Positions 7,263-23,045 of a stretch of DNA of 24,091 bases are shown piece after piece (position 1 is the first letter of the stretch; each line of letters starts with the position of its first letter). The stretch lies in IMG/VR virus record IMGVR_UViG_3300032579_000073, positions 1-24,091 of that record. One strand, given 5' to 3'. Below the pieces are notes generated by a model. The model was given only the letters and a program-made list of their open reading frames with translations, was not told the DNA's origin and did not search any database. This DNA is from a virus. A program made the translations under genes and the position numbers.

Positions 7263-7530
7263 ACAGAAATATTTTGCAAAGCTGGCTGATTTCGGTTGCA
7301 TACTTTGTTACAAGCTAGGATATGGCGAAGGCACACCAAGCGAGATTCACCATTTACGAAAAGCAGGGATAAGAGCTAATGCACCAGTTATACCGCTTTG
7401 CCCGGAACATCATCGGGGAAATACGGGAATTCATGGTTTGGGTAAAAAAGCATTCGAAAGGATGTATGATTTAACTGAAGATGATTTATTACAATTGACA
7501 CACTTTATGATCGGAGCGCCAAATGGCTGA
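7246..7530 (+). CDS. Ref-like HNH/zinc-binding nuclease
   Basis: 94 residues. Motif order: CILC (C18, C21), EIHHLRKAG (H35-H36), IPLCPEHHRG (C52, H55-H56) and GIHGLGKKAFERMY (H63). This matches the phage P1 Ref type, a RecA-dependent HNH-superfamily DNase, and related small phage proteins. The paired Cys/His bind a structural zinc while the second HH block forms the active site. It follows ninB directly, the position where lambda has the Holliday nuclease Rap/NinG, so it probably supplies the junction- or D-loop-cutting step of phage recombination. Function beyond the fold is inferred. Confidence 0.85.
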   Translation: MASKAEQKYFAKLADFGCILCYKLGYGEGTPSEIHHLRKAGIRANAPVIPLCPEHHRGNTGIHGLGKKAFERMYDLTEDDLLQLTHFMIGAPNG

Positions 7531-7825
7531 TACAAATGATTCCACTAATCCTAGTAACGCTGCTGTGCCTACCGTTCCTGATGCTACTGGGAACGCTACA
7601 CCTGCTGCTATTCCTGTTCAGGCCAATCCCGTTCCTAGTGTCAGCTCTACTGATAATTTGGCTCATGGATCATCTACGGTAAGTAAAGAAAACTTCGTTC
7701 AGAAATTCATTGCCGACGTAGAGTACGAAATAAAGAAACTGGAATCGATCACTAGCTTATTTCATGTCGCATCAATCAAGAAAAACATTCATGCTTTGAT
7801 TGCTGATGTGAAATCCAAACTTTGA
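7523..7825 (+). CDS. Hypothetical protein with Ala/Pro/Thr-rich N-terminus
   Basis: 100 residues. The ATG overlaps the Ref-like gene by 8 bases and follows GGAGCG. Residues 1-50 are low complexity (Asn, Thr, Pro, Ala, Val, Ser) and probably disordered; residues 54-100 form charged helices (EIKKLESITSLFHVASIKKN). No family recognised. It is the last gene before the late promoter and structured element B, so it may be an early-to-late control protein, but nothing in the sequence shows this. Confidence 0.6.
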   Translation: MADTNDSTNPSNAAVPTVPDATGNATPAAIPVQANPVPSVSSTDNLAHGSSTVSKENFVQKFIADVEYEIKKLESITSLFHVASIKKNIHALIADVKSKL

Positions 7826-7831
7826 TACTAT
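7823..7831 (+). promoter_or_regulatory. Extended -10 late promoter candidate
   Basis: TG-A-TACTAT is an extended -10 element (TGn plus a hexamer matching TATAAT at 4 of 6). It has no convincing -35 at normal spacing, as is common for extended -10 promoters. Transcription would begin at about 7838, at the 5' arm of structured element B, and run into the terminase and head genes. It overlaps the end of the preceding gene. Confidence 0.45.
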
Positions 7832-7838
7832 AGAAACC

Positions 7839-7903
7839 GTCAGGCCAGCGGAGCGCCGTCCTCGCTTCGACAGGGGTCCCTCCTCCACCTGAACTGGCCT
7901 GAC
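7839..7903 (+). ncRNA. Structured RNA element B (three-way junction) in the terminase leader
   Basis: GTCAGGCCAG (7839-7848) pairs perfectly with CTGGCCTGAC (7894-7903). Inside, 7849-7855 pairs with 7863-7869 (seven pairs, one G-U) around loop CCGTCCT. A second arm, CAGGGG with CC-A-CCTG (7871-7876 with 7885-7891), forms six pairs with a bulged A around loop TCCCTCCT. Nearly every base of the 65 is in a stem or apical loop. It sits 11 bases before the TerS ATG, which has no purine-rich ribosome binding site. No T run follows, so it is not a terminator. Confidence 0.75.
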
Positions 7904-7914
7904 ACCCTCGCATC

Positions 7915-8355
7915 ATGGAAACTACTCGACCCGTTGGCAGACCGTCAGATTACAACGATGAAATCGCCGAAATCATTTGCAATCGGATTGCCGAAGGCGA
8001 AAGTCTAGTCAAAATATGTAAGGACGAATCAATGCCGGGAAGGTCAACGGCTTTGAGATGGCTATCAATCCATCCCAAATTTCGGGACAGATACGCGTTA
8101 GCGCGGGAAGCTCAAGCCGATTACTTGCTGGAGCAGCTGCTAGATATTGCCGACGCTGTAGAGGATGACACCTACGAAGATAAGGATGGGCGGGTACGAA
8201 CCAATCACGAAGTGGTCAATCGATCCCGGCTGCGTATTGATACTCGCAAATGGATTATTGCCAAACTTGCGCCTAAGAAATACGGCGATGTAAAAGATAC
8301 CGATACGCATCAAACTGTGGTCCGAAACTGGATAGAAGAACCGGATGTCGAATGA
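7915..8355 (+). CDS. terS: Terminase small subunit
   Basis: 146 residues. TTRPVGRPSDY followed by EIICNRIAEGESLVKICKD and MPGRSTALRWLSIHPKFRDRY is the standard N-terminal helix-turn-helix of phage small terminases. It recognises the packaging start site and recruits the large subunit. Residues 70-146 give the oligomerisation helix and a polar tail. The start agrees with the family N-terminus, although CACCCTCGCATC before the ATG has no Shine-Dalgarno match. TerL follows with an 11-base overlap. The structured element directly upstream is therefore the leader of the packaging operon. Confidence 0.93.
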   Translation: METTRPVGRPSDYNDEIAEIICNRIAEGESLVKICKDESMPGRSTALRWLSIHPKFRDRYALAREAQADYLLEQLLDIADAVEDDTYEDKDGRVRTNHEVVNRSRLRIDTRKWIIAKLAPKKYGDVKDTDTHQTVVRNWIEEPDVE

Positions 8356-9625
8356 AATCGTCGTTCCAAAACTTCATTCGGGCCAAGAAAATATCTATCG
8401 AAACCAAGCCCGGCTAAATGTAGTCCGTTGTGGGCGGCGCTGGGGTAAGACAAAACTACTGGAATATATCGCTGCTGGATGCGCTCTCAAAGGCATGAAC
8501 GTAGGGATTTTCACACCCGAAAACCGACAGCTTGCCGAGCCTTGGGACCATTTACTCGAAATGTTGTCATCGGATATAAAAAGCCGAAACAGGAATACCG
8601 GGACGATTTACATTAAGGGCGGCGGCAAAATCGATGTATGGACATTGAACGATAACGAGCTGGCTGGTCGGGGGCGCGAATACCACCGAGTATTGATCGA
8701 CGAGGCCGGATTTACCAAATCACCGCAAATGAAGGAGGTATGGGAAAAGGCAATTAAGCCAACCATGCTGACTACCAAGGGTCGGGCGTGGGTATTCTCA
8801 ACACCAAATGGCATCGACACCGATAATTTCTTTTATTCGGTTTGCAATGATAAAGAGCTGGGATTCAAAGAGTTTCACGCTCCAACTATCACCAATCCAT
8901 TTGTTCCTCCTGAGGAATTAGAAAAGGAAAGATTAAGAAATAACCCGCTGGTATTCCAACAAGAGTATTTGGCTGAGTTTGTCGATTGGTCGGGAACGGC
9001 CTTTTTTTCTGTGGATAAGATGCTAGTCAATGGCGAGCCGGTCCAATACCCGGAGCGCTGCGATGGTGTATTCGCTGTCATGGATACGGCGGTCAAGGGC
9101 GGCAAAGAAAACGATGGTACAGCTGTCGTTTACTGTGCGCTCAACAAATGGGTTGGTCATCCATTGGTTGTATTGGATTGGGACGTAGTGCAAATCGATG
9201 GAGCGCTACTTGAAACTTATTTGCCAACGGTATTTGAGCGATTAGAGGAATTGGCAAAGATGACACAATCCCGACATGGCGTAGTCGGGACATTTATTGA
9301 GGATGCAGCTGCTGGTTCGATCCTGATTCAGCAAGGCCGCAGCCGAGGATGGAACACTCATGCCATCGACAGCAAGCTGACAGCTGCTGGGAAAGACGAA
9401 CGTGCCATTTCCGTATCCGGTCATTACTTTCAAGAAAAGCTCAAAATCAGCGAGTACGCATACAATAAGACAACCAATTTCAAGGGCGTAACCCGAAATC
9501 ATTTGTTATCGCAAGTGTCAGGGTTTAGAATTGGCGACAAAGATGCCCACAAACGGGCTGATGACTTGCTCGACTCGTTCGTTTATAGTATCGCAATCGG
9601 CGTGGGCGACAAATACGGATTCTAA
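8345..9625 (+). CDS. terL: Terminase large subunit
   Basis: 426 residues. The ATPase half shows Walker A CGRRWGKTK (29-37) and Walker B RVLIDE (115-120, catalytic E120), with the coupling segment FSTPNG (151-156). The C-terminal RNase H-fold nuclease shows VMDTAVKGG (D247), TFIEDAAAG (E319/D320) and KRADDLLDSF (D406/D407/D410). It drives DNA into the prohead and cuts concatemers. The length is normal for the family and all key residues are present. The start has no clear ribosome binding site but is coupled to TerS by overlap. The portal gene follows after 2 bases. Confidence 0.97.
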   Translation: MSNEIVVPKLHSGQENIYRNQARLNVVRCGRRWGKTKLLEYIAAGCALKGMNVGIFTPENRQLAEPWDHLLEMLSSDIKSRNRNTGTIYIKGGGKIDVWTLNDNELAGRGREYHRVLIDEAGFTKSPQMKEVWEKAIKPTMLTTKGRAWVFSTPNGIDTDNFFYSVCNDKELGFKEFHAPTITNPFVPPEELEKERLRNNPLVFQQEYLAEFVDWSGTAFFSVDKMLVNGEPVQYPERCDGVFAVMDTAVKGGKENDGTAVVYCALNKWVGHPLVVLDWDVVQIDGALLETYLPTVFERLEELAKMTQSRHGVVGTFIEDAAAGSILIQQGRSRGWNTHAIDSKLTAAGKDERAISVSGHYFQEKLKISEYAYNKTTNFKGVTRNHLLSQVSGFRIGDKDAHKRADDLLDSFVYSIAIGVGDKYGF

Positions 9626-22472: not shown

Positions 22473-23045
22473 GTGAAAATCAATCGAGCTTTGAACTTGG
22501 TAATTCCGGTTGAATCGGAAAAAGGACAAATATACGTTCACAGCACCCCGATCTCTCGGGAGGTTTTTGAGCAATATTTCTTGGTTATTTCCAAGACATT
22601 TGCCGGAATCTTTTCTCAGGGATTGGGGGCGATTGCTGGGCCTAGAATTGCATACCTGATGCTAAAGCAAACAGCCGAAGATATGGGTTTGTGGACGGGT
22701 CCGGGCGGCGTTGGTAATGGTTTAGTAAATGAAATAATTCGATTATCGAATGTATTCATGCCCGGTAAAAAGGGATGGCAAAGTATCCCGCTTCAGGTCG
22801 CTATTGACAAAGAAGTATTGGATAAGGAAACCGTCGCTGAAATACAGGGGGAATTGATTTTTTTTACTTGCGTGTCCATGATGAACAAAAAGGCACAAGT
22901 GCAGGGGATCATGGATACAGTCAACGGATTATGGGGTTCGCACACAACATCATTGGATTCTACGGAATACATCAACTCCTTGAAGATATCGACAGAGGTA
23001 GAGAATACTGGCGCGACGGAGATCACATCGTCGCTGCCTGTTTAG
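22473..23045 (+). CDS. Tail assembly chaperone (G-like)
   Basis: 190 residues from GTG 22473 behind AGGACGGAAAAA. It lies between tube and tape measure, where chaperones that coat the tape measure are encoded. The sequence is helical with an AIAGPRIAYLMLKQTAEDMG block and a tail of Ser/Thr/Glu. A T TTT TTT stretch in frame at codons 129-131 and a second long frame overlapping the 3' end suggest the G/GT type of expression. Confidence 0.8.
   Translation: MKINRALNLVIPVESEKGQIYVHSTPISREVFEQYFLVISKTFAGIFSQGLGAIAGPRIAYLMLKQTAEDMGLWTGPGGVGNGLVNEIIRLSNVFMPGKKGWQSIPLQVAIDKEVLDKETVAEIQGELIFFTCVSMMNKKAQVQGIMDTVNGLWGSHTTSLDSTEYINSLKISTEVENTGATEITSSLPV
22859..22865 (+). other. Candidate -1 slippery heptamer T TTT TTT
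   Basis: The run sits in the G-like gene with codon phase X XXY YYZ. A slip would add 102 codons of the -1 frame (to 23170), giving a product of about 233 residues. It lies early (codon 131 of 190) compared with lambda, where slippage is near the end of G, so simple homopolymer coincidence is possible. Confidence 0.35.

Follow-up and report, generated by a model that had tools for sequence, protein, structure and literature searches.

Comparison with related phages confirms, at the level of sequence, that the late operon of a freshwater phage is headed by a conserved structured RNA leader, as had first been observed in a single 24-kb fragment of that phage from IMG/VR (24,091 nucleotides, hereafter the window). 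The leader is predicted to fold into a three-way junction beginning at the transcription start, and lies between an extended −10 promoter and the start codon of the gene for the terminase small subunit (terS). We regard it as an undescribed structured phage RNA family in which promoter, predicted +1, junction and a start codon lacking a Shine-Dalgarno (SD) sequence are locked together and exchanged as a single cassette. Depending on its role, the family would be the second kind of natural RNA-only antiterminator if it modifies RNA polymerase, a start in which a folded RNA replaces the SD helix if it governs translation, or a compact 5′ cap if it is only stabilising.

Structure and genomic context of the leader

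The leader occupies positions 7839–7903 of the plus strand, on which all features described in this section lie. Its 10-bp outer stem is formed by the 5′ arm GTCAGGCCAG (7839–7848) and the 3′ arm CTGGCCTGAC (7894–7903), a pairing seen both in the fold and in covariation among relatives, and encloses two hairpins, with junction linkers of 0, 1 and 2 nt. Hairpin 1 (7849–7869) has its stem at 7849–7855/7863–7869 and the apical loop CCGTCCT at 7856–7862, where most relatives carry ACUGUCCU. Hairpin 2 (7871–7891) has its stem at 7871–7876/7885–7891 and the loop TCCCTCCT at 7877–7884, and its sequence is kept only in the related locus L004 while its pairing is kept more widely. The predicted folding energy is −33.9 kcal/mol, with z about −3.9 for the leader alone and −3.6 with flanking sequence; no shuffled sequence was as stable, and the best single structure makes up 86% of the ensemble. 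The combination of a 10-bp stem starting from GTCAG, the same arm spacing and the loop word was found a single time on the window's plus strand, and 200 mononucleotide shuffles gave no instance of it.

The extended −10 element (TG-A-TACTAT, 7823–7831) consists of TG at 7823–7824, A at 7825 and TACTAT at 7826–7831, and its TGA (7823–7825) also serves as the stop codon of an open reading frame at 7523–7825. Because the element ends 7 nt 5′ of the outer stem, transcription would start at about 7838–7839, at or next to the first stem base. Downstream of the junction, an unstructured 11-nt spacer without SD (ACCCTCGCATC, 7904–7914) leads into terS (7915–8355), which encodes an Sf6-type terminase small subunit (Pfam PF20901, 5.8e-41; phrog_1482), and then the gene for the large subunit, terL (8345–9625; PF03237; phrog_2). 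The ATG at 7915 is the sole possible TerS start, since an in-frame TGA lies at 7900. SD pairing in front of this ATG amounts to −1.5 kcal/mol across 20 nt and to +1.9 for the spacer by itself, and other starts in the window are equally poor in this respect. On re-checking, the positions stated in a reading made from the sequence alone (the sequence-only reading) proved to be right.

Conservation and covariation in related phages

Related loci were gathered by their TerL and TerS proteins and by DNA patterns. They hold nine distinct leader sequences, stemming from few lineages, across dozens of overlapping IMG/VR loci, all with one layout and each directly 5′ of terminase genes. The best-separated leader types are window/L004, L019/L062, L016/L067, L017, L061/L183 and L152/L167, with sizes ranging from 58 to 66 nt; the L004 leader is 94% identical to that of the window. 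The 10-bp outer stem starts with GUCAG (variants GUUAG and UUCAG) and ends with CUGAC (variant CUGAU). Almost no change is seen in its five lower pairs, and covariation marks the five upper ones, such that five of the ten pairs are changed on both sides in relatives, the exchanges being G-C to A-U; U-A to C-G and G-U; A-U to C-G and U-A; G-C to A-U; and G-C to C-G. Covariation was also found in four of six pairs of hairpin 1, the apical loop of which reads ACUGUCCU in seven of the nine leaders and CCGUCCU in the other two, while in hairpin 2 pairing is kept and sequence and length vary. In the seven non-window leaders both hairpins adjoin the outer stem almost without linker, and a linker of 5–6 nt separates the hairpins from each other. 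Over the whole alignment 94% of cells are paired and both-side changes occur at 9 of 16 pairs, a result matched by none of 500 shuffles and unchanged without the window type; sliding the partners by 1–3 columns lowers pairing to 25–42%.

The promoter is conserved together with the fold. The pattern TGnTAnnnT lies 6–7 nt 5′ of the first stem base in all nine distinct leaders, and the +1 predicted from this spacing falls at or adjoining the stem in every one of them, a 5′-terminal stabiliser being expected to have its stem within ~4 nt of +1. The features by which the family is defined, namely a 10-bp GUCAG/CUGAC outer stem, two enclosed hairpins and an extended −10 at 6–7 nt, were thus found together. 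Promoter spacing, stem, hairpin 1 loop and SD-less start are all retained in the related phages, and the comparison supports both the proposed start of the transcript at the stem and the earlier impression that the first RNA of the packaging operon would be nearly all structure.

Within ~1.95 Mb of DNA scanned, the full descriptor of promoter, stem and loop occurred only in leader-carrying loci. Model R1 detected one sense-strand copy per contig in 14 of 14 leader-bearing contigs, in every case at the head of the late operon; in G011 this copy also gave a weak score on the other strand. When the window type was left out of model building, the resulting model matched the window at 16.7 bits (E 0.09 with filters off, such E-values being rough), with the leader as the best place in the window, and gave no window match under default filters. 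The window leader is thus divergent and weakly recovered by the model, so that its kinship is argued in addition from its position, the promoter spacing, the GUCCU loop and the words GUCAG, GUCC and CUGAC.

Several features indicate that selection acts on the plus-strand RNA. Eight of the nine leaders close hairpin 1 with a G-U pair, and the outer stems of L017 and L152 also contain G-U or U-G pairs. As these would be C-A on the opposite strand, they point to RNA rather than DNA, and the folding z was better on the plus strand for every leader.

Promoter–leader module and its distribution

Pairs of closely similar leaders show that promoter and leader are retained or swapped together, independently of the downstream gene, as judged from sequence identities. 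Between L016 and L067 the promoter is 95%, the leader 98% and the spacer with ATG 100% identical, and the gene behind is unrelated: in L067 (from 3068; also in L068, L121 and L148) a GIY-YIG-like open reading frame uses the spacer and ATG of L016 terS, and a TerS of another type comes next. L019 and L062 share a 95% identical promoter and a 100% identical leader and diverge from the 3′ end of the stem on, with a changed spacer and a gene at 69% identity. Since promoter and leader stay 95–100% identical while the gene changes, we consider the element a promoter–leader module and not a TerS operator; the constant promoter distance, together with this indifference to the downstream gene, is best explained by a function linked with the transcript's 5′ end.

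The module is absent from the close relatives L013–L015 (TerS 64% identical), where a promoter-like site in the corresponding position is followed by a short unstructured leader without a junction, and it would therefore be dispensable or recently gained or lost. Model R1 found no match in ~120 further terminase loci, in 16 whole contigs from phages that lack the leader, in the terS regions of six named phages, or in 399 genomes from the order of a betaproteobacterial metagenome-assembled genome (MAG) with a TerS fragment, and pattern scans of IMG/VR yielded no additional leader variant. A TerL search for the host in 274 genomes gave no match. The nearest TerS of a named phage is that of Pseudomonas phage LKA5 (47.5%), and the nearest TerL proteins of named phages are those of Yersinia phages (57%). 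The short TerS fragment in the betaproteobacterial MAG (L120, 4001–4126) is 60% identical to the query and is perhaps a prophage remnant.

Start codon and loop sequences

Spacers between stem and start codon measure 9–23 nt across leaders and are mostly AU-rich, and no leader class has an SD core, which upholds the claim that TerS starts without a ribosome-binding site (RBS). An SD core is present at 40–65% of the larger open reading frames in these phages and SD-less starts are thus common, so that only its absence from all leader classes makes the missing SD noteworthy; six or seven such classes in succession are suggestive but do not amount to proof. Initiation at terS may be mechanistically unorthodox or simply weak, as it is at many genes without an SD. 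No U-run, as would be expected of an intrinsic terminator or attenuator, follows the stem, but ACCCTCGCATC or AU-mixed spacers do.

The sequence-only reading had also drawn attention to CC(G/C)TCCT in both apical loops and to the identity of CCTCCT with the anti-SD core. Of the two loops the first is conserved; CCTCCT in hairpin 2 is found only in the window and L004, and we dropped it as a working anti-SD. The functional meaning attached to that identity also lacks support on other grounds, because a copy of the anti-SD would bind the SDs of other mRNAs and cannot recruit ribosomes. For the hairpin 1 loop ACUGUCCU, no complement (AGGACA/AGGACAG) was found in 16S rRNA of E. coli, and GGACAGT occurs once in its 23S rRNA, with the limitation that E. 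coli may not represent the host.

Possible functions of the leader

Our leading but still tentative reading, drawn from sequence comparison and the simplest for a function linked with the transcript's 5′ end, is that the leader serves as a 5′-terminal RNA cap which protects the late mRNA, and that its conserved loop has a specific partner. Transcription of the late mRNA, which covers packaging and structural genes, would begin from the extended −10 promoter with the first junction base, and the leader would act in cis as RNA. Because it would leave no unpaired 5′ nucleotides, the long late transcript is expected to be shielded from 5′-end-dependent decay (RppH, then RNase E). The rigid junction would present a fixed apical loop, ACUGUCCU, to a putative host or phage protein, and the unstructured spacer would allow a modest rate of TerS initiation. 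The 5′-terminal stem-loops of ompA and papA mRNAs, cited in PMC3997798, are precedents for 5′-end protection. They are similar in that the stem lies at or a few nt from the +1 of a long mRNA, and dissimilar in that they need no conserved loop, whereas the apical loop of the phage leader is invariant in seven of nine. The weakest step of the cap proposal is that from conserved loop to binding partner. A mere stabiliser needs no invariant loop sequence, and the apparent dispensability of the leader, absent as it is from L013–L015, also speaks against a cap.

The main rival is antitermination. By analogy with HK022 put, the nascent leader may bind RNA polymerase, with or without the assistance of a protein, and make it resistant to terminators or Rho over the late operon; we judge this unlikely, although the leader matches putL, an RNA of ~73 nt that begins at transcript position +2/+3 and acts on polymerase unaided (PMC9378689), in place and size. 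Both are structured RNAs of ~70 nt with which a phage operon transcript begins and which are tied to its promoter, the joint persistence of promoter and leader as genes change is expected of a transcriptional element, and weak initiation at the first gene would invite Rho polarity. The fold differs, however, as putRNA consists of two neighbouring stem-loops, has a triplex and lacks a closing stem (PMC9378689), whereas a 10-bp stem closes the three-way junction here; putL also belongs to an early operon and has polymerase as partner, whereas the phage leader belongs to a late one. Strong intrinsic terminators are nearly absent downstream, with none in 16 kb in the window and one in all downstream stretches tested, so that no intrinsic target for antitermination is visible, which we count against it. 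That the promoter-fused junction with its invariant ACUGUCCU loop, a cassette before late operons, forms a second, structurally distinct class of phage nascent RNA modifying RNA polymerase (or the ribosome) directly is likewise something to which we give only a small chance. Also quite unlikely is translational control, with the junction standing in place of an SD helix, either as an aid to SD-independent initiation or as an operator for a late repressor of the first gene. Its appeal lies in the start codon 9–23 nt after the stem with an SD in no leader class, as against 40–65% of larger open reading frames, and in the use of an identical spacer and ATG by the unrelated GIY-YIG frame of L067. 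The spacer nevertheless varies in length and sequence, spacer and gene differ between L019 and L062 behind identical leaders, the loop lacks a complement in E. coli 16S rRNA, and SD-less starts are common in these phages; possible as it is, translational control fits the turnover of spacers and genes less well.

The C4 antisense RNA of P1/P7 is a structured phage RNA derived from a leader, with loops that match ribosome-binding sites; the present leader resembles it in derivation, structure and an RBS-matching loop, and differs in showing no consistent target. That the loop ACUGUCCU, either free or released from the leader by cleavage, base-pairs with AAGGACAG-type RBSs of other phage mRNAs and causes late shut-off is distinctly improbable. 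GGACA is present among GGA-containing RBSs in 32 of 218 genes of leader-bearing and 2 of 221 genes of leader-lacking contigs after removal of duplicates (statistics that rest on simple ORF calls), and a small early gene family, MNDIS, has [A/G]GGACAG in all eight contigs that carry it. The window loop CCGUCCU, moreover, has its sole plus-strand complement, AGGACGG, at the RBS of the gene at 22473. The enrichment is nonetheless missing in G001, G006, G011 and G012 despite the same loop, the early/late difference is gone once duplicates are removed, and in three phages with an identical loop the 22473 orthologue does not carry the complement. The MNDIS site reads, by eye, as the conserved C-terminus (HF-K/R-D) of an upstream frame, which explains its conservation. 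No RBS target is common to all leader-bearing phages, and antisense action on RBSs was set aside as enriched in part of the clade and not coupled to the leader. Packaging sites are frequently located beside terS, and the position of the leader directly next to this gene would suit a DNA element, such as a pac or cos site or a palindrome bound by TerS. This is highly improbable in view of the G-U pairs, the strand asymmetry of the fold, the covariation of an internal hairpin and the near-identical leader which precedes a different TerS type in L067.

As a separate observation on RBS usage, AAGGACA is unusually frequent in G002–G005, G007–G010 and G014, at 15–33% of AGGA sites, but not in related contigs, whether they carry the leader or lack it.

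Known RNA families and neighbouring elements

Rfam 15 gave no match to the window at the gathering threshold, and relaxing the threshold returned only eukaryotic noise with E > 1; the leaders of four relatives likewise had no Rfam match. No terminase leader RNA was described in the open-access subset of the literature. The pRNA of phi29 is alike in being a three-way-junction RNA tied to DNA packaging by position, and unlike in that it serves a different terminase type, whereas the phage leader is part of an mRNA leader and its loops are not mutually complementary (CCGUCCU versus UCCCUCCU in the window, and CUGUCC versus mostly A-rich loops in relatives).

Other junctions were seen in these phages. 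In front of a homologous gene (MHYY...), in L122 (2183–2249) and likewise at this gene start in L152 and L155, relatives carry a junction of another kind, TTGGGC...GCCCAA, which is conserved among them; its L122 copy weakly resembles Rfam int-alpA RNA (E 0.007, below gathering), a likeness that did not recur in a larger search. The window itself contains another three-way junction on the minus strand at 2398–2471 (Element A), with a 19-bp outer stem and z −7.7, followed by U8; it lies ~20 nt before the start of a DUF1376 gene (2382–1630, minus strand) and resembles a terminator or attenuator.
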